Shown: positions 44,193-60,310 of the stretch, piece after piece
How positions within the stretch are numbered: the first letter of the stretch is position 1
Layout of the letters: each line of letters opens with the position of its first letter
NCBI GenBank assembly: GCA_016291905.1
Contig: JAEEZS010000055.1
Coordinates: 124,001 to 188,000, forward strand
DNA from: Bacteroidaceae bacterium
GTDB taxonomy: Bacteria; Bacteroidota; Bacteroidia; Bacteroidales; Bacteroidaceae
Direction: 5' to 3'
DNA length: 64,000 nucleotides
The notes under the pieces: model-generated
Seen by the model: only the letters and a program-made list of their open reading frames with translations
The model's database searches: none
What the model was told of the DNA's origin: nothing
Translations under genes and position numbers: made by a program

Positions 44193-44223
44193 ATACTCCC
44201 GCATCCTAAAAAACGTTTGGTCT

Positions 44224-44709
44224 TTAAGGAAGGATAGATTCTTCTTTTTGGTTTATATTATCACTCTTGCTTTTGCGAAAAAGCAAAACAAATGGATTGT
44301 AAAATGGTATTAGGCAGAAAAGCCAGCTTCGTCCCATATCACGACATCGTCTGATGCATTGAAAACAATAGAAGACGAACAGGATGTCTAATATAATGGA
44401 TAGAACCAGAAACTCACGGCCTAGTTCGGAAATATAGTGTGCGCTGGCATAAGTGCATTCCACCAAAAGAAAAGCCCCAAGCGGCAAAAAGCCGCCAATG
44501 AGGCATACAAAGCCCATAATCCCACAGAACGTCAAATTGGTGTTGAAATTGAAACCTTGAAGATGATTTATATATCCGAAATGGGCCACCATTATATATG
44601 ACACATAAATGCCGAGCAAGGCGCAAAGGAATACCCCAAGAAACCCTATTCGTCCAATCGTCCCCTTTGGGGAAACAAAATTCTTAAACCAGAAAAAACA
44701 CTTTTTCAT
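44224..44709 (-). CDS. DUF805 membrane protein, first copy
   Basis: The 161-residue protein has four hydrophobic segments and the DUF805 signature CIRRCRDMGRSWLFCLIPFYN near its end. N-terminal FVSPKGTIGRIGFLGVF matches the usual KGRxxRxxFW segment. Function of the family is unknown. It is a paralogue of the gene at 45657-46091, with which it shares the sequence around the start codon (TTTTTCATACGGCT), and the two flank an ADP-ribosylglycohydrolase gene. Confidence 0.88.
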   Translation of the reverse strand: MKKCFFWFKNFVSPKGTIGRIGFLGVFLCALLGIYVSYIMVAHFGYINHLQGFNFNTNLTFCGIMGFVCLIGGFLPLGAFLLVECTYASAHYISELGREFLVLSIILDILFVFYCFQCIRRCRDMGRSWLFCLIPFYNPFVLLFRKSKSDNINQKEESILP

Positions 44710-44810
44710 ACGGCTGTTATATTTTCAAGCGGTTATCTACCATTTCAGGTCATCTGCTATATCATTTCCATTTTTCCCGAGGCGACCCCAATCTAAATAT
44801 CGAGCGGAAT

Positions 44811-45614: not shown

Positions 45615-45656
45615 AAGCTTTTATTTATGGGATAATGGAATCATTTTTTTCTTTGT

Positions 45657-46091
45657 CTAATTCTCTCTTTCTTGGCTTCTCTTAAAAAGTAACACAAAAG
45701 GATTATAAAAGGGAATCAGACTATACCACCAGCTCCGCCCCATATCGTGGCATCGTCTGATGCACAGAAACCAATACCAGACGAAAAGGGCGTCAACGAA
45801 CAATGCCAGTAAGGAAGAAAAAAAGTCTTGATCTATACAATAATAAGTAGCTCCAGCAAGTACAATAGCGCCAAGTGGTAATAAACCTCCACATAAAACA
45901 ATCAGCCCCACACCCACATAATAACTCAAATAGAGATTCCATCTTACACCCAATCCAAAAAGGAGACAAAAAGTAGTATAAAACAGAAAGATAGAAAGAT
46001 TGGCACCAAGAAACACAATCCAGAATCCCTTTCTATCCAGCGTCCCTTTTGGGGAAACATAATCTTTCAATAATAGAACCCACTTTTTCAT
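45657..46091 (-). CDS. DUF805 membrane protein, second copy
   Basis: The start at 46091 (MKKWVLLLKDYVSPKGTLDRKGFW) matches the paralogue at 44224-44709; the frame is open 18 bases further. The 144-residue protein has four hydrophobic segments and the DUF805 signature CIRRCHDMGRSWWYSLIPFYNPFVLLF. It follows the lipoprotein gene by four bases and precedes the ADP-ribosylglycohydrolase gene by 42 bases, so the three are probably co-transcribed. Function unknown. Confidence 0.87.
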   Translation of the reverse strand: MKKWVLLLKDYVSPKGTLDRKGFWIVFLGANLSIFLFYTTFCLLFGLGVRWNLYLSYYVGVGLIVLCGGLLPLGAIVLAGATYYCIDQDFFSSLLALFVDALFVWYWFLCIRRCHDMGRSWWYSLIPFYNPFVLLFKRSQEREN

Positions 46092-46095
46092 ACGG

Positions 46096-47388
46096 CTATT
46101 CTTTGTCAAAACGATCAGGTAATGTCATTGCCATCTCCGTAAGAGCATTGTTCCCAAAGTTGTTTTCACCATACCTGTTCAGGTTACACGTTCGGACAAG
46201 GTTATAGGCACAGTTCATGGCAAAGAAATCATCAGGATGAGACTGTATTCGTTTCAGGCAAGCGCAAAAGCATATTTTCCGCATCTGGTTATAATATTGA
46301 TTGGGAATACAGGAATCACGCGACATGCCGAAATACATATATTGACATAATGCACGCCATGTAAGCCAAATGTTATCAAGGACTGGACAATACAGTCCGC
46401 TTTCAAGTAACCGCTCCCCAACAGCCACAATCCATGCATCCTCGCCTATTGACTTCTTGTTGTTCGCCCATAATCCCCAAAGAGTAATCTGGTCGTCGAA
46501 AGTACGGGAAGAGTTTAATTCGCCCAGTATTACTTTCAGCTGCTTCTCTGAACGTGCTTTCTCATAGCGAGTAATCATATCATTAAAGATACGGGAAGAC
46601 TTTAATTCGTCAAGTATTGCTTTCAGTTTTATCTCTGCATCTGCTTTTTCATAGCGTATATAGCTCTCGCGCACACTTTTACCACCTAACGATTCTATCA
46701 GGTCATTATGTTTTTCATAAAAAAAATCTGAGTCTGTAATGAAAGAATTCATTTTTTCTTCAAGAAGATTCATATAGGTCTCCAAGTATTCATCTATGGG
46801 TATGTCCTCATTCCAATCCTCAATGGGGAGGTTCATAAGCGCAAGCATACTGTCTTGGCAATTCTTTGCTGCCAGACGTATTTCCTCATCGTTAAAGATG
46901 CCGGTATCCAACTTCCTGATGGCATCTTTCACATCCTCACCATCATAATCCGTAACAGTCGTTTTCCCTCGATGCCAGAACTCTATATTGCTCCACACAT
47001 TCCATATCCAGACGAAGCCATTATACAAATCCTCCGCAAAAGCCAGAAACGGATGGGGTGATTCGGCATATTCTGGAGCCCTCATGACAAACGAAGTGTC
47101 TTCTGACAAATAAGCCATTATTTGTGGCGGACCATCAGGCGATTCATAAGTAACTGTCTCTGGAGCATTACCCCTCAAAATCGATGACACAATCGAATCA
47201 TTTTCTTCTTCCCCATGTTTTTCATAATAATCATACGCCTGGAGGATATCAGAAATATCTACGGGATTGTTGTCGTCAAGATAATCTTCATAGTTCTCTT
47301 TGGAACTACAACCACAAAACATTGCAGACAAACTGCAAGCTATCACTAATACACGGCAACTAAAAACTATCAAACGTCTTGTTTCCAT
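46096..47388 (-). CDS. Lipoprotein of unknown function
   Basis: I do not recognise the family. The start at 47388 (METRRLIVFSCRVLVIACSL) gives a lipoprotein signal with cysteines at AMFCGCSS; the frame is open to 47430. The 430-residue protein is rich in charged residues. It contains two tandem units of about 28 residues near positions 255-310 (RYEKADAEIKLKAILDELKS and RYEKARSEKQLKVILGELNS), probably a helical hairpin repeat. Cysteines and hydrophobic residues in the last 100 residues suggest a folded domain. It leads the group with DUF805, ADP-ribosylglycohydrolase and the second DUF805. Confidence 0.7.
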   Translation of the reverse strand: METRRLIVFSCRVLVIACSLSAMFCGCSSKENYEDYLDDNNPVDISDILQAYDYYEKHGEEENDSIVSSILRGNAPETVTYESPDGPPQIMAYLSEDTSFVMRAPEYAESPHPFLAFAEDLYNGFVWIWNVWSNIEFWHRGKTTVTDYDGEDVKDAIRKLDTGIFNDEEIRLAAKNCQDSMLALMNLPIEDWNEDIPIDEYLETYMNLLEEKMNSFITDSDFFYEKHNDLIESLGGKSVRESYIRYEKADAEIKLKAILDELKSSRIFNDMITRYEKARSEKQLKVILGELNSSRTFDDQITLWGLWANNKKSIGEDAWIVAVGERLLESGLYCPVLDNIWLTWRALCQYMYFGMSRDSCIPNQYYNQMRKICFCACLKRIQSHPDDFFAMNCAYNLVRTCNLNRYGENNFGNNALTEMAMTLPDRFDKE

Positions 47389-47581
47389 AATACGTTTTCT
47401 CTTCATTTTTTCAACTACCATAGTTGGCATTTTCTCATTAGTTTGTACGCACCAGCAACGGTCAACATCGGCTCATGTACCATCCAGCTGTTTCCTGTGC
47501 GTAATGATACACCTCTTCTTACTTCTAATATGGCTATCTTTCCAATCAAGACCTTTTCCATTCTGCAAAAAAAGTTTGATG

Positions 47582-47638
47582 CAAAGGTAGTCATACTTCC
47601 CCTTTTCCACCAAACAAATTATCTCCGCAAGCCTTGTG
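47582..47638 (-). promoter_or_regulatory. Promoter and upstream motif of the lipoprotein operon
   Basis: TACCTTTG at 47589-47582 and TTG at 47613-47611 are 21 bases apart on the minus strand. The 15-base motif CACAAGGCTTGCGGA (47638-47624) lies 35 bases upstream of the -7 box. A one-base variant lies 45 bases upstream of the kinase-gene -7 box (56683-56669). The leader before the start codon is about 190 bases; nothing else is seen in this gap. Confidence 0.5.
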
Positions 47639-47650
47639 AAAATGGTATTT

Positions 47651-48907
47651 TTATTCCCAGACGACCAGTCTGCGCGGGAGGGTAATCCGTTTTTGCTCTC
47701 CGCCCTTGCCTGCAATATAGTATTGCTCGGCAAGCGACGCATCTACTTCCGCCAGGATGGCGGCTTTGATGCGAGAGCACTTCTCGTTAATCGAGTTAAG
47801 CAAGGGATTGGTCACATCCTCTATGCTTTTCTGCACTCTGCCGGTCAAGCCAAGCGGTTTTATTTTCGCATATAGTTCCGTCAGCTCTTCCCGATAATCC
47901 GGCAGCTCCTTGAACGCTATTCCCTCAGGGTGCTTCAGGTATAGCAGATAGACAGCCTTTGCCAAAGGCTCCAGCTTCACCTCCTTATTATAATCCGAGA
48001 GCATGACTGCCCCGTCTTTGGTGATGGTCAGCCGGCTGTATTTTATCTGGTGTTTCAGCTTGTCATCGTGGAAGCCCAAGCGCCAGATGGTCTTGTCACA
48101 CCGCTGCCCCTCGTAGTATTTATACAGCACATCGTTGAAGATATCGTCAGGAGCGACAAGGTCGAAAAGTGTCATGCACGACCTGACCTTCAGCACATCG
48201 GGAAAGCCCAGGATATCGTCCGCCGACTTGTTGCTGCAGTCAAGAAGCGCTTTTGTGATTTCCCTCAGCCGCTTCCCCAGCACAGGATGCTCCAGATAGG
48301 CCATGGCTTCCTCTTTGTTGCTGATGCCGTAGAACTCCGAGTTGTAGCTGTGTCCCAGACCTTTTATCTGCGGAAACACGTACCATATCCAATGGCTCTG
48401 TTTTCGTCCGTTCCTTATTTCTCTTAGCGCATCGTTGTATGACCCCCACGCGCCGTCCTGCGCCTTGACGAAACGCTCCAAGTCATAGTGGGTTTCTCCT
48501 CCGCCCAATGCCTCCACAAAGCTTTTGGGGAGGCTGACATTCCTCAGCTCCAAGGCATCGATAAAGAACTGCGCCATCTCCTCATCGTGATATCCGGCTA
48601 TGCCACAGCCCACACGAGTCACGAGGAAGAACAGCTCTGTATGCGCTTTGGCGAAGGCGATGAACCTCTCTATGGCAGCCCTTACCTCGTTGTCCTTGCG
48701 CACATTCTTTCCGTAATCCACAGGAATGGCATAGCTCTGCCCTTGCAGACCCTCTGCCTGCCCCCACACAGCCCCGAACTTCTTTCGGGCCGTACCCGAA
48801 GCACCACCCGTATGATAGCCCAAGGCATTACTGCCGAACACAAAAATCTGATTGTGCAGCAACGTGTCTATGTAATCCGGAGTAAAGCCCATCGTCCTCT
48901 CTTCCAT
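47651..48907 (-). CDS. A1S_2505/macro-like plus DUF1810 fusion protein
   Basis: Three regions are visible in 418 residues. Residues about 17-130 (IFVFGSNALGYHTGGASGTA, GLQGQSYAIPVDYG, VTRVGCGIAGY) match the A1S_2505 phage-related family, which looks macro-domain-like. Residues about 140-270 (RFVKAQDGAWGSYNDALREI, HWIWYVFPQIKGLG, KVRSCMTLFDLV) are DUF1810. The last 145 residues form an unassigned domain ending in KRITLPRRLVVWE. A macro-like domain could bind or remove ADP-ribose, which would fit the DarT-like gene in the same operon; this is inference. The gene starts four bases after the PP2C stop. Confidence 0.8.
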   Translation of the reverse strand: MEERTMGFTPDYIDTLLHNQIFVFGSNALGYHTGGASGTARKKFGAVWGQAEGLQGQSYAIPVDYGKNVRKDNEVRAAIERFIAFAKAHTELFFLVTRVGCGIAGYHDEEMAQFFIDALELRNVSLPKSFVEALGGGETHYDLERFVKAQDGAWGSYNDALREIRNGRKQSHWIWYVFPQIKGLGHSYNSEFYGISNKEEAMAYLEHPVLGKRLREITKALLDCSNKSADDILGFPDVLKVRSCMTLFDLVAPDDIFNDVLYKYYEGQRCDKTIWRLGFHDDKLKHQIKYSRLTITKDGAVMLSDYNKEVKLEPLAKAVYLLYLKHPEGIAFKELPDYREELTELYAKIKPLGLTGRVQKSIEDVTNPLLNSINEKCSRIKAAILAEVDASLAEQYYIAGKGGEQKRITLPRRLVVWE

Positions 48908-48911
48908 CTTT

Positions 48912-49694
48912 TTATAGTATAGCTAATGAATAATCGTCGTGTCCTATCAGTTTTTTGTTCCGAAGGCCCTGCAGATGCTGTTTGACGTTCCAGCTGTTCT
49001 TGCCGTTCAGCAGCTTGTCCACCACGCTCTTTTCAAAATCCACCTTCTTCATCCCCAACGCCATTCTGATGAAGTTGCTGTTCTTTGTCTGTGCGTCGAT
49101 GGCCTCTTGCAGCTCGTCGGCAAACTCGTCCCTGTGCGCCACTTCATACATCATCAGGATGTAATGGGCCAACGCGTCGCTGGCAGCAAAGACGATGCTC
49201 TCTTCGTCCGTTTCAAACGTTCCGCTCTTGAAGCCGTTTTCATCCGTCGGGTCTTTGCAGTTCACCAGATAGGGGGGCTTGTTGAAGTCCACGATGCGCC
49301 CAAACGTATGCTGCAATCTGCCCGTCTTCCTGTCAAAGCAGAACGCCACGCTGTCGCCGTAGCTCATCCATTGTCCCTCCTTCCAGACTGCCACCAGCGT
49401 AGCAAACGAGCCCTCATCGTAGAACTTGTTCAGCAGCATACCCCCTTCTGCCTCAGCCGTTTTCTCGCAGGCGTTATAGAAGGGTTCCCAGATGCCGTCT
49501 ATCCAGCTGTCGAAAGCCTGATAGTCCGTGATGGGTAAATCCGGCAGATGCTCTACCAGATACCTCGACCATTTGTCGGCAAACACGCCGCCTCCCCCAG
49601 CACCATCCGAAACGGCTATCCATTTCTCCGTGCATTGGGCAGCGTCCTCGTTGACGGCACCCTCGTCAAACTTCGCTATCGACAAGGCTTTCAT
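48912..49694 (-). CDS. PP2C-family protein phosphatase
   Basis: The start at 49694 (MKALSIAKFDEGAVNEDAAQ) overlaps the stop of the VWA gene by four bases (ATGA); the frame is open further upstream. The 260-residue protein has the PP2C metal-site motifs NEDA, WIAVSDGAGGGG and VFAASDALAHYIL, but is divergent. PP2C enzymes remove phosphate from Ser/Thr. Its expected partner is the kinase encoded at 52952-56593. The arrangement of VWA protein, PP2C and kinase recalls the TerY-P triad described in tellurite-resistance-type stress systems. Confidence 0.85.
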   Translation of the reverse strand: MKALSIAKFDEGAVNEDAAQCTEKWIAVSDGAGGGGVFADKWSRYLVEHLPDLPITDYQAFDSWIDGIWEPFYNACEKTAEAEGGMLLNKFYDEGSFATLVAVWKEGQWMSYGDSVAFCFDRKTGRLQHTFGRIVDFNKPPYLVNCKDPTDENGFKSGTFETDEESIVFAASDALAHYILMMYEVAHRDEFADELQEAIDAQTKNSNFIRMALGMKKVDFEKSVVDKLLNGKNSWNVKQHLQGLRNKKLIGHDDYSLAIL

Positions 49695-51139
49695 TGATTC
49701 TGGCTGATGTTTGTGGGCGTACCAATATCCATCAGCTTGATAAGTGTGGTTGCATCGGCGAACACACCCATAGCAACGTGTCTTCCTGTCCTCGTGTCGT
49801 TCAGGCATCGGGCAATGTCAACATTATATCGCTCAGGTAAAAGACTCGACATCTCAAAAAGATCTTCTCCGTATGGATTGCCGCCAAGTTCTCTTTTTTC
49901 AATAGGACAAGCAATGGGTTTCAATGATTCATCGCCCGCGAAGTGAATGTTGAAGAGTATCACGTTTCCATCATTGGTGAACATCGCTTTCAGCTCGTTC
50001 GCCTTCTGCATCACCTCGTCCTTCGTGGCATGATTATATTCGCCATCCGTAATATGGATTACCGTAGGTGGGTAGCAGTCCTTATCATGATGCTCCATCA
50101 TCCACTCATCCAGCAGATTCCTTGCATAGTCAAAAGCCTTGTGGTAATGCGTCCAGCTGCCGTCGTGACGGGCACTTACCCATTGCACCAGTTCCACCTC
50201 CTTCACCTGAACGCCCTTTCGCGTCCTGGTCTCTTTCCGCATCACAATCTTGGTGAAGGGATGGTTCTTCAGTTCTTCGGGCGAGACGAAGTCCCTCCCT
50301 TCCAGCTCTCCCTGCCATCCGCTATAGGCATCCACGCCATAGCCAACGACGGCAATGTCGTAGTAGTGCCGTGTTTCGCCCATCTTCACGCATCGCAGCA
50401 CCAGCTCATTGATTTGGTTGTTCACAATCCGTGCAGCAGCCTCAGCCATCGTCATTTCCTCGCCATTGAGATAGGTGCTCTGTTCCATGCTCACAGAGTG
50501 GTCCACCAGGAAGATGAATGCCGTAGGTGTGTTTCTCGTAATCTGTGCCGTATAGGGTATCTTGGCTTGTAGCTGCTTGGGCTGGGCAGGAAGGGGAATG
50601 CCGAAGTTGCCGATGTTCTTGATGTACTTCAGGGGAATGAAGTTCTTCACCAGCACCTCAGCCTTATAGTACATCTTCGCATCGTCGCTCATGTCAAAGT
50701 AACGTTGCCCCCAGAACAATCCGAAGTGAACGGCTTTCAGGTCATCCAGGCTGCCCCCCACATTCGCGCCGTTCTTGGTCATGTTCCTGTCGGCATAGAG
50801 CGTGTCCTCCCAAAGTGCCGCTTCGAGGTCGATTTCCAGTATGACAGGGTTGGAGATACGTCCGTCATTCATGGCAACAAACATCATCGGATGGTCTGGC
50901 ACGAAGCTCAGTCGGGCGTAGTATTCCAGCCCGTCGCGCGTGTCAAGCGAGCGTGAGGTATCGCTCCCTCCAGGCTTCGTAATCTTGATGCCCTTCTCCT
51001 CACAGTCTTTCCACGAGTACAATCCGCCATGCCTGATGATGGACTCCAGGTTATCCCTGTCCGTAAAGTGATAGAGCTTGTGGATTCTGCCCTCTTTGAG
51101 CACTTGCTCATACGCCTGCCAGTTACTTTTCTTATTCAT
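49691..51139 (-). CDS. DarT-like ADP-ribosyltransferase fused to a VWA domain
   Basis: Residues about 18-180 match the DarT/DUF4433 family that ADP-ribosylates thymidine in single-stranded DNA: LYHFTDRDNLESIIRHGGL (His24), YARLSFVPDHPMMF and YYKAEVLVKNFIPLKYI, with Glu161 as candidate catalytic residue. Residues about 205-465 form a von Willebrand A domain with the metal site DHSVS (Asp213, Ser215, Ser217). The VWA part resembles TerY-like proteins and probably mediates regulated protein contact. Its start overlaps the DUF6939-like gene and its stop overlaps the PP2C gene, so these are translationally coupled. The target could be DNA, RNA or protein. Confidence 0.8.
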   Translation of the reverse strand: MNKKSNWQAYEQVLKEGRIHKLYHFTDRDNLESIIRHGGLYSWKDCEEKGIKITKPGGSDTSRSLDTRDGLEYYARLSFVPDHPMMFVAMNDGRISNPVILEIDLEAALWEDTLYADRNMTKNGANVGGSLDDLKAVHFGLFWGQRYFDMSDDAKMYYKAEVLVKNFIPLKYIKNIGNFGIPLPAQPKQLQAKIPYTAQITRNTPTAFIFLVDHSVSMEQSTYLNGEEMTMAEAAARIVNNQINELVLRCVKMGETRHYYDIAVVGYGVDAYSGWQGELEGRDFVSPEELKNHPFTKIVMRKETRTRKGVQVKEVELVQWVSARHDGSWTHYHKAFDYARNLLDEWMMEHHDKDCYPPTVIHITDGEYNHATKDEVMQKANELKAMFTNDGNVILFNIHFAGDESLKPIACPIEKRELGGNPYGEDLFEMSSLLPERYNVDIARCLNDTRTGRHVAMGVFADATTLIKLMDIGTPTNISQNQ

Positions 51140-51761
51140 AGTCGTCGAATAATGTGGGTTCGATAATCTTTTTTGTTCTCTTCTTTTTAGGGGCTTTTTG
51201 AGGGGCTTTCTCTCCGTAGGGATAGATGCCCTCCACGTATGCCTTTATCAGCGACGCATGCGACAGAGGCCTCTTCGCATTCTCCACATCGGCATTCGTG
51301 TCGTAGTCCAGCAGCACTATCGTCTTTGTCTGGGATGCCTCTTTCAGCCTGTCCATAATCGCCTTTACCTTATTTTCCAACACCCAGCGGTATGTCGGAA
51401 TGTATATCTGTTTCCTTGCGTCGATATAACTCAAAAGCTCTGTGCCGTTCACTCCTTTCCGATGTCCGAGCGGCTTGCCGAAGCGGCGTACCGTCCGTTT
51501 CAGCCCTTTCATTGTGTCGTTCTCGAATAGCGTGATATCCACATCAGCCCCCTCAAACACCTTCAGCCCCTGCCAGATGGCTTCCACGCAGGTTGCCGTA
51601 TAGCCCTCGCTGAAGGGCACGGGTATGCCCCCGTGCGGATAGAACGGGCTCAGCTTCACCAGCCCGTCCTTCGCCCCGCTGGTGACGTCTGCCAGTATCG
51701 CATCCGGATATTTCTTCCGTATCGTTTCTGGCTTCTTCCGCTTCGATTCAATGATGATCAT
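51132..51761 (-). CDS. DUF6939-like protein
   Basis: The 209-residue protein begins MIIIESKRKKPETIRKKYPD and contains LVKLSPFYPHGGIPVPF, RRFGKPLGHRKGVNG and ARKQIYIPTYRWVLENKV, consistent with the DUF6939 family. The C-terminus is Lys/Pro-rich and ends LFDDYE. I see no known catalytic motif. Its ATG directly follows the TAA of the short remnant upstream, and its end overlaps the DarT/VWA gene by eight bases. Such coupling suggests it acts with that protein, perhaps as substrate adaptor or inhibitor, but nothing shows this directly. Confidence 0.7.
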   Translation of the reverse strand: MIIIESKRKKPETIRKKYPDAILADVTSGAKDGLVKLSPFYPHGGIPVPFSEGYTATCVEAIWQGLKVFEGADVDITLFENDTMKGLKRTVRRFGKPLGHRKGVNGTELLSYIDARKQIYIPTYRWVLENKVKAIMDRLKEASQTKTIVLLDYDTNADVENAKRPLSHASLIKAYVEGIYPYGEKAPQKAPKKKRTKKIIEPTLFDDYE

Positions 51762-51941
51762 TTATTGAGAAACTTGAAAAATGTTTGGTATTTGTGCCAA
51801 TTTGAATGGCACAATTCTGTTATTGACAACACGCACAACCCTTTTCCGATGAGTTGCTATGATGCTATAAACGGCCTCAAACTCTTCCTTATGCTTAAGG
51901 AGACCTCCATCATTATTGATTTTCCTTAAATCATTGCTCAT
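51762..51941 (-). pseudogene. Short remnant resembling the N-terminus of a DUF1016/YhcG nuclease
   Basis: The 59-residue frame (start MSNDLRKINNDGGLLKHKEE at 51941) contains EAVYSIIATHRKRVVRVVNN, similar to the start of DUF1016/YhcG PD-(D/E)XK nucleases. The WxxG and catalytic parts that should follow are missing. A TAGCTTTG box (51970-51963) and a GGAG ribosome site precede it. Its TAA is followed at once by the ATG of the DUF6939-like gene. It may be a leftover whose promoter now serves the operon, or a real small leader peptide. Confidence 0.45.
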
Positions 51942-51962
51942 ATACTTATCTCCATTTATTTG

Positions 51963-51970
51963 CAAAGCTA
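51963..51970 (-). promoter_or_regulatory. -7 box upstream of the DUF6939/DarT-VWA/PP2C operon
   Basis: TAGCTTTG on the minus strand matches TAnnTTTG and is followed by GGAG eight or so bases before the ATG at 51941. No TTG at the right distance is clear. Confidence 0.45.
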
Positions 51971-52056
51971 CAACTTTTTATTCATATTTTATGGCTTACT
52001 ACCATTTTTACGTCTTACGTCATTATTATAACATGCAAAACAGGAAGTGATACCAC

Positions 52057-52902
52057 TTACCATCCCTTTGGAGGCAGAATTTTATTCTTTGTAATACCAA
52101 GTTTCAATAATTTATTAATCATCATTTCGTCTTCTCCATCTTGATGGTAATATAAAAGCCAGTCAGCATCAGGAATGTTTTTATTTGCTTTTATTATTTC
52201 CTTAATATATGGCATATCAATGTCGTTGAACGAAAATCCCATAACAACGAAATGCTGAATATCTGCATATTGAGTAAATTTGATACGGTTCATGTAGATA
52301 ATATCATTTACTTTTTTAGCGGCATTAGCAACTTCATTCATAATCATATTAGCAACATCTTGTCTGATGGGATTCTTTTTCTTAGCTTCAATTAAAAGTT
52401 GCATCAAATCTACATTATTAAAATCATGTCCAACAATAGGGTTTTTTCCTTCCTTAAAATCTTTTATCGAATGATGGATATGCCACACATTCTCTTCATT
52501 CACATGATAAGTTTTTTCTAACACCATAGTGTAATTGAATGTAAAAAACTTGGCATCAGCATCAATCCCGATTGTCTCATCGGGCTCAACTTTATCATTT
52601 ACACCTTGAATCCAATTGCCAAAAAGAGGGGGGAGTTTGCCCTTTAATAAATTCTTTACCTGCATAAAGCCAAGTGCCTCTCCATTCATTAATTTCACAA
52701 TGTTATTGTAATCAACGCACCCTAGCATTTTTTCAAAATTCCACCACCAAAAATCTTGCTTGGGTGAATCACCATATATTTTAAGAAGTACTTCCCAAAG
52801 GGGTTTATTCTTTAAATAGTTTTCACGAAAATCCATATAAGATGTTGGCATCTTATGATGGAGATCAAATCCGTTGCCTATTATAAAAAGTTTTTCTGTC
52901 AT
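52057..52902 (-). CDS. AbiH-like abortive infection protein
   Basis: The start at 52902 (MTEKLFIIGNGFDLHHKMPTS) is typical of AbiH proteins; the frame is open to 52935. The 281-residue protein has the N-terminal GNGFDLHH nucleotide-binding-like motif, DFWWWNFEKMLG, FFTFNYTMVLEKTY and the C-terminal FVVMGFSFNDIDMPYI. AbiH acts in abortive infection against phage in Lactococcus; the mechanism is not well known. It lies 50 bases after the kinase gene and is AT-rich, as is the kinase gene, so both may share a transcript. Confidence 0.88.
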   Translation of the reverse strand: MTEKLFIIGNGFDLHHKMPTSYMDFRENYLKNKPLWEVLLKIYGDSPKQDFWWWNFEKMLGCVDYNNIVKLMNGEALGFMQVKNLLKGKLPPLFGNWIQGVNDKVEPDETIGIDADAKFFTFNYTMVLEKTYHVNEENVWHIHHSIKDFKEGKNPIVGHDFNNVDLMQLLIEAKKKNPIRQDVANMIMNEVANAAKKVNDIIYMNRIKFTQYADIQHFVVMGFSFNDIDMPYIKEIIKANKNIPDADWLLYYHQDGEDEMMINKLLKLGITKNKILPPKGW

Positions 52903-52951
52903 ATGATTCTGAAAAAAAGAGAAAATGCCAGTCAATCCAATCTATATTATT

Positions 52952-55900
52952 TTATTCTTGCTCCACGAGTATATTTTTTAACTGTGGTAGCATTTTTTCA
53001 TATTTCGATTTTGTTCTCTTAGGTATAAAGATAGCTGTCAGACTATGGCAATCTGAAAATACGCCATAACCAATGCTAATTATACTATCAGGAATGATGA
53101 TATACATTAGATTCTTACAGTTACCAAATGCACCAGCTTCGATGCTCGTCACCCCATAAGGAATAATAATATTTGTAAGGCTAGAGCAATCACGGAATGC
53201 ACTAGCTCCAATGCGTGTCACACTATTAGGAATGGTGACGCTGGTCAAACTACTGCAACCATAGAAAGCACCATATTCTATAATTATTACACTTTCAGGG
53301 ATGGTGATACTTGTTAGACCATTGCAATCAGCAAACGCGTGTTTTCCGATTTTTGTCACTGTATTGGGAATTACAGTTTTAGCACAACCACTTACCAATG
53401 AATTGCTACAAGTATCAATAATTGCATTACAATTGTTTCTTGAATCATATATAGCATTTTTAATATCAACAACAATAGTTCTCAAGTTGGCGCAACTACT
53501 TAATCCTAAATAATCAATATTCGTTACACTTTTTGGGATGAAAATACTATTTAATCCGCTACAACCTTTGAACGCATCTGGTCCAATTTTTGACACGCTA
53601 TCAGGGATAATGATGTTTGTAAGCCCGCTGCAATCTCTGAACGCATCTATCCCAACTTTTGTCACGCTATTAGGGATGGTGATATTTGTCAACCCGCTAC
53701 ACCCTGAGAATGCGGCACATTCGATGCTTGTCACGCTATTAGGGATGGTGATATTTGTCAACCCGTTGCAGCCACAGAATGCACCATATCCGATGCTTGT
53801 CACATTGTTTGGAATGACAGTTCTTTTGCAACCTATAACCAATGTATTACTTAAAGTATCAATAATTGCATTACAATTATTTCTTGAATCAAAAGTGACG
53901 TTATCATTGCCAACAATGATGCTTGACAAATCATTGCAATCCGCGAATACACAGCTACCGATACTTGTAACACTATTAGGGATAATGATTTTTGTCAGAC
54001 TCCTGCAACCTTCAAATGTCCTATTCCCAATATTAGTTGCGCAATTAGGGAGGGTGATACTTGTCAAACCTACGCAACCAAAAAAAGCCCAATCTCCAAT
54101 GCTCGTCACGCTATCAGGAATGATGATGCTTGTCAGACCGCCACAATAGGAGAATGCATTATTGCAGATTACTTTTGTCCCCTTTTTTATTACATATCTT
54201 TCTATGTCATTAGGAGCTTCTAACAATCGTTTTCTATCCGCACTATATTTTACCCTATATTCATCCGTCCATGCATTTGCCAAATCTTCACCTGTTACTT
54301 CTGTACTAAGGTTTTCATCATCCTCTTGTTCTATAAGTTTATCTTTATATTCAGGCAACAAACGTTCAAATCTACCCGAAGAATTCATCGGAATAATAAT
54401 CTCCAAAGTTTTTTCACATAAAAGATTCATTTCAATGAATGGATTCTCACCAATTCTCGACACAGATTCTGGTAAAACTATACGAGAGAGTTCACAATCA
54501 TAAAATGCATAGCTGCCTATCTCCTCAACACCATTTGGCACGACAAATTCATCGGATTTGCTAAAACATGAAATAAGGCTTTTCTTATCTGATGTATATA
54601 ACGCCCCATCTTCAACCACAAAATAAGGTGATTTGCAAATAATTGTGTCATAATCTCCTCTGAAAGGATTTCTTCCTATAAGATGGACTGTAGATGGAAT
54701 CGTAATTTTGCCACTAATGATTAACCCTTCTATCTCCCACCCAAAGTCATTCAGGGCATCATCACAAATCACCTCTGTTCCTTCTGGAATTTCGTAATCT
54801 GGCAAATAACTGCCGTATACCCCAAGTAATTTTATTCTATCTTTACTATACATAACTCCAAACTCATCCTTCCAAGCATTTGCCCAATCTTCATCTGTTA
54901 CTTTTGTGCTGAGATTTTCATCATCCTCTTGCTCAATAAGTTTATCTTTATATTCAGGCAACAACTCTTCAAACTTTGTTTTTGTACCTTTGGAAATAAA
55001 AATCGTTGTCAGATTGCCGCAACCACAAAGCGCACGTTTTCCAATGTACGTTACGCTGTCAGGTATAGTAATGCTTGTTAAACCAATGCAATCAAAAAAC
55101 GCAAGGTTCCCGATGCTCGTCACCCCTTCAGGGATTGTAATGCTTGTCAAATTGCGGCAAAAGGCAAATGCTAAATTTTCAATGCTTGTCACGCTTTTAG
55201 GGATGGCGATACTTGTCAAACCTTTGCAGCCAAAAAACGCACGAGAAGCAATAATAGAGATGTTTTTTGGTATTACTGTTGATTGGCATCCGAATAATAA
55301 TTCGTTGGTTTGAGTTTTAATGATGGCATTACATTGATTGCGAGAATCAAATATGATATTTTTCTCATCAACAACTATTTGACACAATTCCGGAAAAACA
55401 GCCAAAACTAAAGACTCAGAACTAATTATCTTAACAGATTCTGGAATATAAAGAGACTTTATACGGTTTTTAATTTGTTCGCCCCTAAAGGCCATCTTCA
55501 AAGCTTCGTCGCAAATGACTTGTGTTCCTTTTCTTATTCTATAGTCTATAATATCATCAGGAATTTGCAACAGGCGTTTCTTGTCAGCACTATATTTTAC
55601 GCCAAATTCATCCGTCCAAGCATTTGCTAAATCTTCTTTTGTTACTTCTGTAGAAAGAATGTCTTCTTCATTTTGTGGTTTTTCTGGCCTAGTTAGATTG
55701 AAAAGGCGGAAAGAGACTTGGGAAAGATTGTTCTGAGAGGCTACAAGAATGAATAGAGAATAGAGTGAAGCTAATTCTGGAACTTGCATCAGTGATTTCA
55801 ACGCATCCATGACTTTGCTTTCAGAGAGATTTCGATAATCCCTCTCTGAGAACAGCAGACGGTCTGAGGCTCCATATTCTTCCAAAAGCTCAGGCTGGAG

Positions 55901-56593
55901 GGAGATGGCTTTCAGGGAAAGGAGGATGCTGGCAAGGGAAAAATCATCGATATGCTCGTCGAAATCTGTCTCTGTCCGGCTGGGATGGCGGAAGTCAGGG
56001 CTGCCCAGCTCACGGGCTTTCTGGCCTTTCATGGCGGGAACGTACATGCCGTCGTAATCGACTAACGCCAGCGTGCCGTCCTCGCGGACAAGGATATTGT
56101 CGGGCTTCAAGTCCCCGTGTGCAAAGGGCAGGGGCATCAGCCACATCGCCAAGCGGCTGAACTGATAGGCAAGAAGCGACAATTCATATTTGTCGTCCAG
56201 ATGCGCACGAACGTATTTATCAAGCGTCATGCCCTCCACCCAGTCCATCAGCAATACGGGAAACTCCGTCTCGTCCGTCTGGCTGGTATCTACAAATAAT
56301 TCCTTATCCAAATATCGGATAGGCGTGAGGAAGGTGCTGCTGACGTACTCCAATTCCTCGGCTATGAGGCGATAAGCCTCTGCACGCCCCTCCTGTTCCT
56401 TCAAGAAACACTTCACGGCATGCAGGCGTCCCGTCTGCTCGTCCTTCATCTTGAACACCACAGCGAAGTTTCCACTCGACATCACAGGCTCCCCATCAAT
56501 GCCTAATACGGGGCGAAGCTGCTTCAACTGCTCAAGGTTGTCCTCTGCTGCCTTTATGGCTTCGACATATTCAGATATCAGCGGGTAGTTCAT
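52952..56593 (-). CDS. Ser/Thr protein kinase fused to three leucine-rich-repeat modules
   Basis: The start at 56593 (MNYPLISEYVEAIKAAEDNL) gives 1213 residues; the frame is open further. Residues about 30-290 are a protein kinase: Gly loop at 38-46 (VMSSGNFAV), Lys61, catalytic loop HGDLKPDN (159-166) and DYD (179-181) in place of DFG. From about residue 313 come three modules, starting near 313, 561 and 763. Each begins with a VTxEDxANAW segment and continues into BspA-type LRR_5 repeats (for example SVTSIGDWAFFGC). No signal peptide or membrane helix is seen, so it is probably cytoplasmic. The repeats are the likely sensor, the kinase the output. Confidence 0.9.
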   Translation of the reverse strand: MNYPLISEYVEAIKAAEDNLEQLKQLRPVLGIDGEPVMSSGNFAVVFKMKDEQTGRLHAVKCFLKEQEGRAEAYRLIAEELEYVSSTFLTPIRYLDKELFVDTSQTDETEFPVLLMDWVEGMTLDKYVRAHLDDKYELSLLAYQFSRLAMWLMPLPFAHGDLKPDNILVREDGTLALVDYDGMYVPAMKGQKARELGSPDFRHPSRTETDFDEHIDDFSLASILLSLKAISLQPELLEEYGASDRLLFSERDYRNLSESKVMDALKSLMQVPELASLYSLFILVASQNNLSQVSFRLFNLTRPEKPQNEEDILSTEVTKEDLANAWTDEFGVKYSADKKRLLQIPDDIIDYRIRKGTQVICDEALKMAFRGEQIKNRIKSLYIPESVKIISSESLVLAVFPELCQIVVDEKNIIFDSRNQCNAIIKTQTNELLFGCQSTVIPKNISIIASRAFFGCKGLTSIAIPKSVTSIENLAFAFCRNLTSITIPEGVTSIGNLAFFDCIGLTSITIPDSVTYIGKRALCGCGNLTTIFISKGTKTKFEELLPEYKDKLIEQEDDENLSTKVTDEDWANAWKDEFGVMYSKDRIKLLGVYGSYLPDYEIPEGTEVICDDALNDFGWEIEGLIISGKITIPSTVHLIGRNPFRGDYDTIICKSPYFVVEDGALYTSDKKSLISCFSKSDEFVVPNGVEEIGSYAFYDCELSRIVLPESVSRIGENPFIEMNLLCEKTLEIIIPMNSSGRFERLLPEYKDKLIEQEDDENLSTEVTGEDLANAWTDEYRVKYSADRKRLLEAPNDIERYVIKKGTKVICNNAFSYCGGLTSIIIPDSVTSIGDWAFFGCVGLTSITLPNCATNIGNRTFEGCRSLTKIIIPNSVTSIGSCVFADCNDLSSIIVGNDNVTFDSRNNCNAIIDTLSNTLVIGCKRTVIPNNVTSIGYGAFCGCNGLTNITIPNSVTSIECAAFSGCSGLTNITIPNSVTKVGIDAFRDCSGLTNIIIPDSVSKIGPDAFKGCSGLNSIFIPKSVTNIDYLGLSSCANLRTIVVDIKNAIYDSRNNCNAIIDTCSNSLVSGCAKTVIPNTVTKIGKHAFADCNGLTSITIPESVIIIEYGAFYGCSSLTSVTIPNSVTRIGASAFRDCSSLTNIIIPYGVTSIEAGAFGNCKNLMYIIIPDSIISIGYGVFSDCHSLTAIFIPKRTKSKYEKMLPQLKNILVEQE

Positions 56594-56616
56594 GGGGGTT
56601 TTCAAATTAGATAGTG

Positions 56617-56683
56617 CAAATATACTGCTTTTTTCTTGAGAGGCACCACATATTGGTAAAAAACTTTTTCCGCAAGGCTTGTG
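56617..56683 (-). promoter_or_regulatory. Promoter box and shared motif upstream of the kinase gene
   Basis: TATATTTG at 56624-56617 is a perfect -7 box, 24 bases before the ATG. No TTG is clear. CACAAGCCTTGCGGA at 56683-56669 differs by one base from the motif upstream of the lipoprotein operon (47638-47624). Confidence 0.5.
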
Positions 56684-56779
56684 GAAAAACGGCAGTTCTT
56701 TTTCCAAGGGCAATTTTGAGAAGATGTTTTACGAAAAAAAGCCAACACCTACCTTTTTCGCCAAAACTGATTATTTTAC

Positions 56780-57060
56780 AGTCTGTTAGGACAGGTAGGT
56801 GTTTGCAAAACACCTACCTAACACCTACCAGACACCTACCTATCTTCTCACTTGAAGGTCTGAAAGGATGGAAATCAGAGAATTATAAATAAAGTAAACA
56901 CGAATTACCAAGAATTTTCCATGAATGGCTGGCGCAGCAAAACCATGAGCTTTTACAAACTGGTAAGAGACAGGTAGGTGTTAGGTAGGTGTTCGACAAA
57001 CACCTACCTATGTTTACCTCTTTATTGTCACTACCTTACAAGTAAAAAGGTAGGTGTTGG
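56780..57060. repeat. AGGTAGGTGT inverted-repeat region
   Basis: The motif AGGTAGGTGTT and its complement AACACCTACCT occur about nine times, in pairs facing each other: 56792-56815, further complement copies to 56842, 56970-57008 and a single copy at 57048. They could form stems of 11 or more base pairs. The stretch between 56594 and 57500 has no recognisable gene; it holds this region, a TTGGGCT-related block and short repeats. Confidence 0.75.
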
Positions 57061-57084
57061 GGGTGTTTCGCAATCCTTAACGCT

Positions 57085-57175
57085 ACGAGCGTAGCCCAAT
57101 GGGCTGTGCGCTCAGCCCAAGCATCTGGCGACGCAGATAAAGCAGCTGCGGAAATAGAAGCTGATTCTATTAAAA
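57085..57175. repeat. AGCCCAAGCATCTGG block related to copy A
   Basis: AGCCCAAGCATCTGGC here is the complement of GCCAGATGCTTGGGCT in copy A (near 5562-5577), and GGGCTGTG also recurs. A second dyad, TTCTATTAAAATAGAA, follows at about 57162-57177. The region therefore carries a rearranged relative of the dispersed elements. Confidence 0.55.
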
Positions 57176-57208
57176 TAGAAGGGCTTTCTGACAGAATAGA
57201 AGTATAGT

Positions 57209-57243
57209 ATAATTGATAATTGACAATTGATAATGGATAATTG
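57209..57243. repeat. AATTGATAATTGACAATTG spacer repeat
   Basis: Units of TAATTGATAATTGACAATTGA occur three to four times in 35 bases. It is of the same style as the other short intergenic repeats in the window. Confidence 0.65.
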
Positions 57244-57339
57244 TGGGCTCACCTCGGAAAAGCTCAAATAAATTTGACGATCGTCTAATTTTGTCGCGAC
57301 TCAACAAAGAAAATACAAGCATTTTTTGGTTTTCGCTGC

Positions 57340-57463
57340 TCCAAAATTTGCTTTTTCGCTCGGCTCACCCTGTCTTTAATCCCCCTTCGGGGGCTTTTAG
57401 ATAGGGGTCGCCTCGGATAATTGCAAATAAATTTGCATTATCGCTCGGCTCACCCTATCTTTG
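57340..57463. repeat. Duplicated TCGCTCGGCTCACCCT segment with glsA promoter
   Basis: TCGCTCGGCTCACCCTGTCTTT near 57356 and TCGCTCGGCTCACCCTATCTTT near 57441 are near copies. Between them lies CCCCCTTCGGGGG, a short perfect hairpin. The second copy ends in the glsA -7 box. Confidence 0.6.
57434..57463 (+). promoter_or_regulatory. Promoter of glsA
   Basis: TTG at 57434-57436 and TATCTTTG at 57456-57463 are about 19-20 bases apart, a full match to the Bacteroidetes promoter. The ATG follows 38 bases later. Confidence 0.65.
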
Positions 57464-57500
57464 CAAATTCAAACACCCTGTCATCTTACAAAGAGATTCC

Positions 57501-58418
57501 ATGGACTATCAGCATATCCTCGAAACAGTCTGGCGCGACATCCAGCCTTACGCCCGCCTCGGTCAGCAGGCCGACTATATCCCTGCCCTGGCCCGCGTGA
57601 ACCCTGACCAGTCCGGCATCTGCCTCAAGACCCTCGACGGCAGGACATGCAGCGTGGGCGACGCTGATGTCCGATTTTCCATACAGAGCATCTCCAAGGT
57701 GTTCTCGCTTGCCCTGGCGCTTCACTTCGAGGGCGAAAACCTCTGGACGCGCATGGGGCGCGAGCCCTCGGGCACGGCCTTCAACTCGCTCGTCCAGCTG
57801 GAGTACGAGCACGGCATCCCCCGCAACCCCCTCATCAACGCCGGCGCCCTCGTCACGGCCGACATCCTCCTCGACCATCTCCCGGGCGACCCCGAGCAGT
57901 TCTACATCGACTTCCTGCGCACGCTGTGCGGCAGCCCCGACATCGACTACAACACGGAGGTGGCTGCCTCCGAGCAGAGCTGCGGCTACATGAACGCCGC
58001 CATCGCCAACCTGCTCAAGCACTATGGCAACATCCACGGCGACCTCGACCGCGTGATGCGCCTCTACTTCATGATGTGCTCCGTCGAGATGTCGTGCCGT
58101 GAGCTCGCCCAGGCCTTCATCCCGCTTGCCAATCACCACCAGCCCTTCTGCTTCGCCGGCATCGACCTCACCACGTCGCAGATCAAGCGCATGAACGCCA
58201 TCATGCAGACGTGCGGCTTCTACGACGAGGCGGGTGAGTTCTCCTACCTCGTGGGCCTCCCCGGCAAGAGCGGCGTGGGCGGCGGCATCGCTGCCATCTG
58301 CCCCATGCGCTATACCATCGCCGTCTGGAGCCCCCGCCTCAACGCCAAGGGCAACTCCATACTCGGCATGAAGGCGCTCGAACTATTCACCACCCTCACC
58401 GCGGAATCGATTTTTTGA
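57501..58418 (+). CDS. glsA: Glutaminase
   Basis: GlsA hydrolyses glutamine to glutamate and ammonia. The 305-residue length is typical. The serine-dependent beta-lactamase-like fold shows SISK (Ser63-Lys66) in VRFSIQSISKVFSL, NPLINAGALVTADIL, GYMNAAIANLLKHYGN and, near the end, GLPGKSGVGGGIAAICP. It has its own promoter. It stands between the accessory island and the second half of the cobalamin cluster but has no evident pathway link to either, although glutamine amidation occurs in cobalamin synthesis by other enzymes. Confidence 0.96.
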   Translation: MDYQHILETVWRDIQPYARLGQQADYIPALARVNPDQSGICLKTLDGRTCSVGDADVRFSIQSISKVFSLALALHFEGENLWTRMGREPSGTAFNSLVQLEYEHGIPRNPLINAGALVTADILLDHLPGDPEQFYIDFLRTLCGSPDIDYNTEVAASEQSCGYMNAAIANLLKHYGNIHGDLDRVMRLYFMMCSVEMSCRELAQAFIPLANHHQPFCFAGIDLTTSQIKRMNAIMQTCGFYDEAGEFSYLVGLPGKSGVGGGIAAICPMRYTIAVWSPRLNAKGNSILGMKALELFTTLTAESIF

Positions 58419-58476
58419 TGGAAGATGGAAGAAGGAAGATGGATGATGGACGATGGACAATGGACGATGGACGATG
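58419..58476. repeat. GATGGACGATGGAC spacer repeat
   Basis: Units of GATGGAAGA and ATGGACGATGGAC run without break from the glsA stop for about 58 bases. It is a simple-repeat spacer of the same type as those between other genes here. Confidence 0.8.
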
Positions 58477-58549
58477 AACCATAAAAGAATTATTGCTGGA
58501 AGAGCTATTTTCTGAACTAAAAAAAATAATTCCTAATTCTTTTCATACC

Positions 58550-60310
58550 GTGATACGAATAGAGACCATCAACGAGGCGGGGCGGCGACTGGCCGAGGTG
58601 CTGCAGCGTGAGGACATCCCCTTTGAGGGGGAGGCCATCGTCTTCATTGGGGCGCTGGGCATCTGTGTGCGCCGCATTCAAACCCTCATCAACGACAAGG
58701 CTACCGACCCTGCGGTGGTGTGCGTGGATGTGACGGGGCGCTATGCCATCCCCTTACTGAGCGGACATATCGGGGGCGCAAATGAGTTGGCACGACAGAT
58801 AGCACGGGTGACGGGCGGCGAGGCGGTCATCACCACGCAGAGCGACCTGAAGGGATGGTGGGCACTCGACACGCTGGCTCGTGACTACGGCTGGGGCGTA
58901 ATGAAGCTCTCGCGAACGGAAATGAATCGCGCCATTGCCACGTTTGTCGATGGGCAGCGGGCGGCGTTGGTCGTGGAATGGGACGATGCAGGCACGCGTC
59001 ATCTGGCAAACACTTGCCCCCCGCATGTTCATCGGTTCACAAGCTATGCCGACTATCAGGCTGCTGTGGCAGCAGGTGAATCGTTTGCTCTGTTGTTGCT
59101 GGTTTCGCCCTATCATTACGATATTGAGCCAGACCAAAAAGTCATACACTACTACCCCCGCGTGCTTCGGCTGGGCGTGGGGTGCCAGCGCGGCACATCG
59201 GCTGAAGCGGCAGAGAAGCTGTTGGACGAGGTTCGCAGCCTTGGCTACGCGCCGGAAGCCATCGGGGTGGTAGCCACGATAGTGCTGAAGCAGGACGAGC
59301 CGCTTGTTCATGAACTTTGCCAAAAGCTGCCTTGGGCCTCATTGTCCATTTATACTGCGGAAGAGCTGGCTCACGTAGCTGTCCCTCATCCCAGCGAGCG
59401 TGTGCTGGCCGAGGTGGGCTGCGCCAGCGTGGCCGAGGCTGCGGCAGCGGTACAGGGGACGCTGGTTGTAGAGAAACAGAAGGGAAGTCTCGACGGAAGC
59501 TATTATACGTTTGCTGTAGCAGCGAAAGAGACACCCAAGCATGGCCATATAGAGATTGTCGGAGCTGGTCCGGGCGACCCTGAGCTGGTGAGCGTGCGCG
59601 GAAGGCGACTTCTTCAGGAGGCCGACCTGATCCTCTATGCAGGCAGCCTGGTGCCCCGTGCGCTTACGGCCTGCGCGAAGCCGGGAGCTACGGTGAGGAG
59701 TAGTGCGGGCATGGCGCTGATGGAGCAGTTTGAGCTGATGAAGGAGTTTTACGACAAAGGGTGTCAGGTGGTGCGCCTCCACACGGGCGACCCCTGCATC
59801 TATGGGGCCATCGATGAGCAAATGGCGCTGTTCGACCAGCATGGCATGGACTATGGCATCACCCCCGGTATCAGCAGCTTTCTGGCTGCGGCAGCGGCGT
59901 TGCGTAGTCAGCTGACGATGCCTGGACGGACGCAGACTATCATACTGACGCGCGGAGAGGGACGGACACCTGTGCCCGAACGGGAACGGTTGCAGACATT
60001 GGCACGTCATGGAGCTACGCTTTGCATTTTCCTCTCTGCCACCTTGGCGCAGCAAGTGCAAGACGAACTGCTTGCAGGAGGCTATCCCGACAATACGCCT
60101 GTGGCTGCCTGCTATCGGCTGACATGGCCCGACGAGAAAATCGTCCGTGGAGAGTTGAAGGACTTGGCTCGGCTTGTGCGTGAAAATGACTTGACCTTGA
60201 CAACGATGATCGTGGTGGGCGAGGCCATTGGCAATCGCGAGGGGCAGAGCCTGCTGTATGACCCGCATTTCTCGCATCTCTTCCGCGAAGGAAAAAAACC
60301 GAAGGAATAA
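58550..60310 (+). CDS. cbiGF: Fused CbiG (cobalt-precorrin-5A hydrolase) and CbiF (C11-methyltransferase)
   Basis: I favour the GTG at 58550 (VIRIETINEAGRRLAEVL), which matches where CbiG proteins begin; the frame is open to a TTG at 58493, within spacer-like sequence containing AATTCCTAATTC. Residues 1 to about 325 are CbiG, opening the lactone ring (IGALGICVRRIQTLI, VDVTGRYAIPLLSGHIGGAN, LGVGCQRGTSAE). Residues about 330 on are CbiF/CobM (IEIVGAGPGDPELVSVRG, LILYAGSLVP, RLHTGDPCIYGA, YGITPGISSFLAAAA). These are consecutive steps in anaerobic cobalamin synthesis. The next gene begins three bases after the stop. Confidence 0.93.
   Translation: MIRIETINEAGRRLAEVLQREDIPFEGEAIVFIGALGICVRRIQTLINDKATDPAVVCVDVTGRYAIPLLSGHIGGANELARQIARVTGGEAVITTQSDLKGWWALDTLARDYGWGVMKLSRTEMNRAIATFVDGQRAALVVEWDDAGTRHLANTCPPHVHRFTSYADYQAAVAAGESFALLLLVSPYHYDIEPDQKVIHYYPRVLRLGVGCQRGTSAEAAEKLLDEVRSLGYAPEAIGVVATIVLKQDEPLVHELCQKLPWASLSIYTAEELAHVAVPHPSERVLAEVGCASVAEAAAAVQGTLVVEKQKGSLDGSYYTFAVAAKETPKHGHIEIVGAGPGDPELVSVRGRRLLQEADLILYAGSLVPRALTACAKPGATVRSSAGMALMEQFELMKEFYDKGCQVVRLHTGDPCIYGAIDEQMALFDQHGMDYGITPGISSFLAAAAALRSQLTMPGRTQTIILTRGEGRTPVPERERLQTLARHGATLCIFLSATLAQQVQDELLAGGYPDNTPVAACYRLTWPDEKIVRGELKDLARLVRENDLTLTTMIVVGEAIGNREGQSLLYDPHFSHLFREGKKPKE

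Follow-up and report, generated by a model that had tools for sequence, protein, structure and literature searches.

We analyzed a 64,000-nucleotide stretch of a Bacteroidaceae bacterium genome (assembly GCA_016291905.1, contig JAEEZS010000055.1, positions 124,001 to 188,000; hereafter the window, to whose positions all coordinates refer) and within it the minus-strand gene stretch 47651–56593, which combines the kinase, PP2C phosphatase and von Willebrand factor A (VWA) components of a TerY-P triad with a DarT-type ADP-ribosyltransferase. Window proteins were scanned with Pfam, NCBIfam and PADLOC, the last covering 10 of them. Every open reading frame (ORF) named in an earlier, sequence-only reading of this DNA was recovered at its position, and the ORFs and profiles together confirmed the gene set it had listed for this stretch: a kinase with leucine-rich repeats (LRR), AbiH, DUF6939, a DarT-like/VWA fusion, PP2C and a DUF1810 protein. 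The genes that form the proposed cassette are as follows.

52952–56593, minus strand: Ser/Thr kinase of the TerY-P type with a BspA-type LRR tail of about 930 amino acids, the proposed sensor kinase (Pkinase PF00069, E = 1e-12; PADLOC STK_OB, 3.8e-49; LRR_5, 3.6e-130)
51132–51761, minus strand: DUF6939, proposed to be a divergent NADAR (DarG1-like) ADP-ribosyl hydrolase/antitoxin (PF22075, 6e-78)
49691–51139, minus strand: DarT::TerY fusion (DarT PF14487, 1.5e-34, residues 23–197; PADLOC TerY PDLC02224, 1.9e-43, residues 195–475)
Inside 49691–51139, minus strand: DarT domain at about 50549–51073 and TerY-type VWA domain at about 49715–50557
48912–49694, minus strand: PP2C phosphatase of the TerY-P type, with corrected start (PADLOC PDLC02222, 2e-9)

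The DUF6939 and DarT::TerY genes overlap by 8 nucleotides, DarT::TerY and PP2C overlap by 4, and a gap of 4 separates PP2C from an optional fifth gene with A1S_2505 and DUF1810 domains. The chain of four coupled or nearly touching genes described earlier (51761 to 47651) thus stands, with the PP2C start moved from 49808 to 49694; the latter gives a protein of 260 amino acids with an ATGA overlap with the DarT::TerY stop, and we preferred it because 42 of 62 related loci show an overlap of exactly 4 nucleotides. The window PP2C had no Pfam PP2C match at E-values up to 0.1 and was recognized by the PADLOC TerY-P phosphatase model only; the metal-site residues E16-D17, D30-G31, D173 and D253-D254 are kept in 63 of 63 copies, the window's included.

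To study the recurrence of the arrangement, we scanned a collection of 84,980 species with a DUF6939 pattern, which gave 243 relatives, and examined the best 80 with up to 10 kb on either side. A DarT::TerY gene is found no more than 2 kb from DUF6939 in 66 of the 80 loci; 5 have a DarT without TerY (one of them, L079, tallied so with only a 77-amino acid piece present) and 9 have no DarT. The DUF6939 gene is located 5' of the toxin gene in 65 of the 66 loci, the order being reversed in L110, and PP2C follows DarT::TerY in 62, the remaining 4 being on contigs shorter than 6.1 kb. Of the 44 loci with more than 5 kb available upstream, 43 have a same-strand kinase at some point of the fetched stretch and 26 have at least two; the highest number per locus, over all 83 loci counted, is four. 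The earlier proposal of a system joining kinase, PP2C, TerY-type VWA and DarT-type ADP-ribosyltransferase was thereby supported, having passed, across the 80 loci, the co-occurrence test set in that reading: the cassette is not a chance cluster and recurs in dozens of related genomes. A few observations weigh on the other side. The 80 loci are the matches most similar to the window's DUF6939, and the sample leans to close relatives; among the loci with no DarT, L106 and L107 stop at a contig edge and L107 and L129 retain a kinase; and L087 is the sole locus with room upstream and no kinase.

An even sample of 393 genomes across the order contained DUF6939 in 7 genomes, adjoined by DarT in 6. 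The neighbor is DarT::TerY in four (the window's own genome, G247, G263 and G334), and a different DarT architecture in G275; in G126 it is a PP2C-like::DarT protein, with TerY and PP2C each encoded separately. G269 has a fused NADAR domain and no DarT. Such an unfused form was seen at L038:1–4131, with a PP2C-like domain fused to DarT followed by separate DUF6939, TerY and PP2C genes. Carriers include the named strains Prevotella sp. P5-108, Segatella copri iA622, Parabacteroides distasonis An897 and Parabacteroides sp. PF5-6; because several carriers are strains rather than metagenome-assembled genomes, the cassette is not merely an assembly artifact. One further candidate, L036 in genome G383, was dropped because it looks decayed: its 13 kb contain a short kinase piece and a DarT domain (66% identical) and neither TerY nor DUF6939.

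The assignment of the fusion's N-terminal part as DarT-like, made earlier from the sequence, was upheld by the profile match, the solved relatives and a phylogenetic tree. The nearest solved structure is 8baq, the DarT1 of E. coli C7 (2.8e-9), followed by 7omu (2.2e-6) and 7omv (5e-4). Taking the DarT1 residue numbers from the available part of PMC11543638 and mapping them by reading the 8baq alignment, we found E152, N104, M71 and F18 to correspond to E161, N119, M85 and F25, all invariant in the 49 fusions compared. Glu161, the residue that the sequence-only reading proposed to change as a check, sits at the catalytic-glutamate position of solved DarTs (alanine in the crystallized chain). 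The MIDAS (metal ion-dependent adhesion site) residues of the TerY VWA domain, D213, S215, S217, T330 and D365, are likewise intact in 49 of 49.

A midpoint-rooted maximum likelihood tree was built from 57 DarT domains; L143, which yielded none, and L149 are not in it. The 23 DUF6939-paired DarTs cluster with all 7 NADAR-paired DarTs (SH-like approximate likelihood-ratio test 92.6, ultrafast bootstrap 97), and 26 of the 27 top PF14487 matches form, under this rooting, a separate clade (96.6/99). We treated these 27 as DarT2-like, although a small macro profile detected a macrodomain neighbor for only 3. The residue at the DarT1 F18 position follows the same division, phenylalanine being found in 23/23 DUF6939-paired and 7/7 NADAR-paired domains and in 0/27 of the top PF14487 matches (20 isoleucine, 4 methionine, 3 gap). 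Less favorable to a DarT1-like activity, R52 and D54 of DarT1 have no clear counterpart, R68 being kept in 39 and D69 in 34 of the 49 fusions, and N119 was ruled out as a marker of guanine specificity, as asparagine is found there also in 11 of the 27 top PF14487 DarTs.

Several lines of evidence suggest that DUF6939 is probably a divergent NADAR, and as such a likely antitoxin and eraser of the DarTG1 type. When 60 DUF6939 members were scanned at E-values up to 10, 23 matched PF22397, the DarT1-associated antitoxin family NADAR-DarT1, with a best value of 2e-5, and the next most common chance family was matched by 7 members with a best value of 0.066; of ten DUF6939 proteins scanned singly, eight matched PF22397, consistently along the same part of the profile. 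In a profile–profile comparison with hhalign, two unrelated profiles used as controls against DUF6939 reached probabilities of 1% and 0.15% (the latter for macro). The residues E60, K67 and K88 are invariant in 60 of 60 members and, by alignment and spacing, are the counterparts of E88, K95 and K115 of the E. coli C7 NADAR, the first two of which are described as catalytic and the third as needed for rescue from DarT1 (PMC11543638, in the part available). The spacing of the E–K pair is the same (+7), and that of the K–K pair is off by one residue. In the reverse direction, when 8 NADAR-DarT1 loci were searched with a DUF6939 profile, the NADAR protein was recovered from 2 of them at E = 1e-3, the search being a very small one. 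In L043 DUF6939 is fused to an ordinary NADAR domain (PF08719, 2.2e-54). An AlphaFold2 model of DUF6939 has an alpha+beta structure with a mean predicted local distance difference test score of 89.0 and a predicted template modeling score of 0.83.

The evidence for this relationship has its counterweights. The window's own DUF6939 has no PF22397 match at E-values up to 10; the best match of the family, at 24.6 bits, lies under the Pfam cutoff of 27 bits; the hhalign comparison with eight NADAR-DarT1 proteins gave a modest result (E = 4.3e-5, probability 69%); the catalytic Asp171 could correspond to either D158 (51/60) or D152 (60/60); and a profile search of the Protein Data Bank (PDB) with DUF6939 found no NADAR structure. 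DUF6939 could instead be an adaptor or a nucleic acid-processing subunit, with the eraser, if there is one, being the DUF1810 protein or the ADP-ribosylglycohydrolase, as the sequence-only reading had proposed for these two. The missing NADAR match of the window copy and the 9 of 80 loci with DUF6939 and no DarT would fit such a role. We nevertheless consider it unlikely: of the 54 related loci that extend far enough downstream, 19 have the DUF1810 gene directly after PP2C and in the other 35 it was not seen there, the glycohydrolase type was detected in 7 of 80 loci (5 of these among the 66 with DarT::TerY) and not in the fetched stretch of the other 73, and neither looks obligate, while E60, K67 and K88 fit the NADAR E/K/K pattern and an ordinary NADAR is fused to DUF6939 in L043. 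DUF6939, to which the sequence-only reading gave no role, is thus the likelier eraser. As a probable NADAR it would remove the ADP-ribose added by DarT, so that the eraser would be part of the cassette core and each core would bring its own antitoxin.

Outside the cassettes, DUF6939 without DarT was seen on two IMG/VR contigs, at L134:9980–10549 (183 kb) and L135:9974–10555 (95 kb). On these putative viral contigs the gene could be a virus-borne antitoxin mimic or anti-defense gene. None of the three IMG/VR records matched a terminase family, PHROGs matches on the contigs were few (12 families over 29 proteins), and phrog_2, matched by one of the three, is uninformative as it also matches 11 of 14 control genomes. 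A second scan for viral DUF6939 loci returned the same three contigs only, and a NADAR scan none.

The related kinases vary in their C-terminal tails. The best STK_OB stretch of the window kinase spans only positions 1–287 of the 562 in the model, covering the kinase part and no OB part. Among 63 related kinases the catalytic H-G-D-x-K-x-x-N and D-Y-D-G motifs are invariant, and the tails contain LRR_5 in 43 and Sel1 repeats in 17, with fewer TPR, FNIP, WG and FGE-sulfatase matches. The tails often appear exchanged while the kinase domain and the core stay close, the pattern expected of pathogen sensors. Between the window and L053, for example, DarT::TerY is 93% and the kinase domain 87% identical, and the tails of 928 and 247 amino acids have no match; in L060 and L061, DarT::TerY is 99% alike and the best tail pair 32% identical. 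When loci whose DarT::TerY proteins are 75% or more identical are paired (107 pairs), the best tail pair falls below 50% identity in 94. Speaking against a general rule, the tail is kept in some near-identical loci (L102/L114, 100%; L083/L084, 94%; L096/L097, 90%), and the variation could alternatively come from recombination between repeat genes without selection. The earlier proposal that the repeats sense a trigger is supported indirectly, because tails are often swapped and kinase domains kept.

On the basis of these sequence patterns, we think it fairly probable that the locus is a mobile immune cassette whose toxin and eraser, a pair of the DarTG1 type, are controlled by phosphorylation through a TerY-P switch. 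As long as the cell is healthy, PP2C would keep the kinase, the TerY-DarT protein or both unphosphorylated and DarT held off, and DUF6939 would erase leaked ADP-ribosylation. The trigger would be a phage product meeting the repeat tail of the kinase or, alternatively, an inhibition of PP2C; phosphorylation on or through the TerY part would then free DarT, which would ADP-ribosylate guanines in single-stranded DNA, possibly also RNA, and stop phage replication. PP2C and DUF6939 would reset the system, and a core served by several kinases, each with its own tail, would respond to a broader set of triggers. By analogy with the known systems we infer the switching step, the phosphorylated target, the trigger and the phage defense, the last of these from the parts, the island context and the tail exchange. 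A broader formulation is tentative: the cassette may be a pattern-recognition platform in which exchangeable sensor kinases (LRR, Sel1, TPR or other, up to four per locus) report to a fixed DUF6939/DarT::TerY/PP2C hub with its own guanine-ADP-ribose eraser, and the DarT-DUF6939 pair a portable effector in at least two alarm systems, TerY-P and one that is ZorAB-like.

A purpose other than phage defense is conceivable, if improbable: the cassette might be a stress-response or toxin–antitoxin module that holds islands or senses metal, the envelope or DNA damage, its tails binding host ligands and its DarT slowing growth reversibly. Toxin–antitoxin modules commonly stabilize islands, and the cassette sits on an inserted one. 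Links of TerY-P to tellurite resistance and to the sensing of metals are also stated in the available part of PMC11090510. The frequent exchange of tails on a conserved core, however, agrees better with change driven by pathogens than with a stress ligand that stays the same, and AbiH, AbiE, Schlafen and RhuM-type genes are found nearby, here or at related loci. Still less likely, DarT could be a regulator that ADP-ribosylates a protein partner or the kinase, with DUF6939 and DUF1810 reversing the mark as signaling; the fused VWA domain, of a type described in the accessible text of PMC9503650 as a magnesium-dependent peptide-binding chaperone, could direct it to a protein, but the profile, the tree and the active site place this DarT with the DNA-modifying DarTs, and its partner resembles a family of guanine-ADP-ribose erasers. 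That unrelated defense genes merely share an island by chance, as AbiH and the glycohydrolase, behaving as independent cargo, might suggest, is highly implausible and is refuted for the core by the recurrent order of DUF6939, DarT::TerY and PP2C, whose starts touch or overlap in most of the 66 loci.

The phosphorylation switch proposed for this cassette has precedents, which we compared through the available parts of the cited articles. The window resembles the TerY-P triad in having VWA, PP2C and Ser/Thr kinase genes, matched by the PADLOC models TerY, PP2C and STK_OB, and an intact MIDAS. TerY-P guards Pseudomonas aeruginosa from phage (PMC10889362), and a form with an OB kinase is reported as a stand-alone system (PMC11090510). 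The window differs from that antiphage form, with its OB-fold kinase, in the LRR tail; it also differs from the triad in the fusion of TerY to DarT, and in related loci several kinases often go with one core. In place of the OB-fold/zinc-ribbon C terminus of TerY-P kinases, related tails are LRR, Sel1, TPR, WG and FGE-like, and the families shown for the 63 kinases (25 of 31) include no OB-fold and no zinc ribbon. A side observation concerns L046:1–4098, where kinase, TerY and PP2C genes, the TerY 67% identical to the window's, occur with no DarT and with a Fic gene about 70 bp farther on; this Fic gene hints that the effectors of the TerY core are exchangeable, too.

The other half of the cassette resembles DarTG1, an antiphage defense in E. 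coli (PMC12255303) in which DarT ADP-ribosylates guanine and NADAR reverses the modification (PMC11543638). The window DarT groups with NADAR-paired DarTs, DUF6939 looks distantly NADAR-like, and transferase and likely eraser are encoded by adjacent genes; the differences are that the antitoxin belongs to a separate Pfam family and is mostly encoded before the toxin and that the toxin bears a TerY domain and is tied to a kinase and a phosphatase. DarTG2, which pairs DarT2 with the macrodomain antitoxin DarG, shares the DarT family but differs in the DarT clade, with Phe25 absent in 27 of 27 top PF14487 matches, and in its macrodomain: the operon here has no PF01661 match. A balance of kinase and PP2C as a switch, proposed here by analogy, is described for KKP (PfkA-PfkB-PfpC), where a phage protein can act as the trigger through inhibition of PP2C (PMC11341870). 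KKP has two kinases and a PP2C, whereas the window cassette has one kinase; the available part of that article describes no VWA or DarT component, and the KKP kinases carry CSD or FHA domains, neither of which was found in the Pfam scan of the window kinase or in the 25 of 31 families shown for the 63 kinases.

A link to Zorya is seen in three related loci, L124, L133 and L048, where DarT and DUF6939 are followed by a ZorB-like gene (2.7e-11, 6.6e-14 and 1.4e-14). The gene between DUF6939 and the ZorB-like gene has a weak ZorA match in L124 (3.2e-5) and L048 (2.4e-5) and none in L133. No TerY, PP2C or kinase was detected in these loci and, conversely, no ZorA or ZorB among the 10 window proteins scanned. 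These three loci may possibly be a Zorya-like variant with an ADP-ribosylating effector. In them (L124:8356–12844, L133:8769–12953, L048:5650–9813) DarT has a long N-terminal extension, and by eye L125 and L132 show the arrangement too.

Taken as an immune cassette, the locus is probably an unreported kind of virus defense built from two known ones. Our literature searches, in which subscription papers were thinly covered and articles on TerY and DarT were judged by their titles and the opening of their abstracts, found no paper describing a TerY-DarT pairing and nothing for DUF6939 or for DUF4433 with von Willebrand. One article, PMC3710099, contains both TerY and ADP-ribosyltransferase. To our knowledge, the effector of TerY-P is unclear, and we know of no described phosphorylation input to DarT; under the proposed model, TerY-P would gain a concrete, testable effector and DarT a phosphorylation input. 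The uncharacterized family DUF6939 would be offered a function, and the kinase tails would form a catalog of candidate phage sensors from Bacteroidales of the gut and rumen, among them strains of Segatella copri and Parabacteroides distasonis.

The remaining features around the core are as follows.

52057–52935, minus strand: gene of the AbiH family that separates the kinase from the core and is either cargo or an accessory, with the start possibly at 52902 (PF14253, 6.2e-36)
47651–48907, minus strand: optional fifth gene, with an A1S_2505 domain, DUF1810 and a tail of about 130 amino acids (NF049995, 2.4e-37, N terminus; PF08837, 1.3e-53)
44811–45614, minus strand: ADP-ribosylglycohydrolase, an occasional neighbor (PF03747, 1.2e-29)
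42571–58492, no strand: inserted island in a B12 operon, ends approximate (homologs of the flanking genes adjacent in genome G003, contig C9)

The label "macro-like" that the fifth gene had been given finds no support: a profile search of the PDB found no macrodomain for the A1S_2505 part, and hhalign against eight macrodomain proteins gave a probability of 0.25%. AbiH of the window type was detected in only 2 of the 80 loci; because of this and the 7 of 80 for the glycohydrolase, both are cargo or occasional accessories, and AbiH, previously counted as part of the system, looks like a defense-island neighbor, as does AbiE. Elsewhere in the vicinity, a predicted protein of 444 amino acids without a family and a small membrane protein, which we take to be DUF805-like, lie at 45657–47430 and accompany the cassette in L053 and L054. 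A gene with Schlafen AlbA_2 and HATPase_c_4 domains at L055:8592–10004 belongs to a blastp-linked cluster of 12 ORFs, and in the first four members listed (L055, L058, L059 and L062) the Schlafen-type ORF is located between the kinase and DUF6939.

The cassette lies in an insert of about 16 kb within the B12 operon. Homologs of 41335–42570 and 58493–60310 are adjacent in G003 contig C9, and the cassette of that genome is on another contig, C44. We assigned the genes 41335–42570 and 58493–62106 as B12 genes by eye, and a cobalamin riboswitch (RF00174, 59.7 bits) at 32268–32517 lies ahead of the gene run cut by the insert. A direct repeat of 61 nucleotides, 95% identical, is found at 42499–42559 and 44132–44192; it is the 3' end of the gene 41335–42570 copied beyond the AbiEi/AbiEii pair, which suggests that AbiE was inserted separately.

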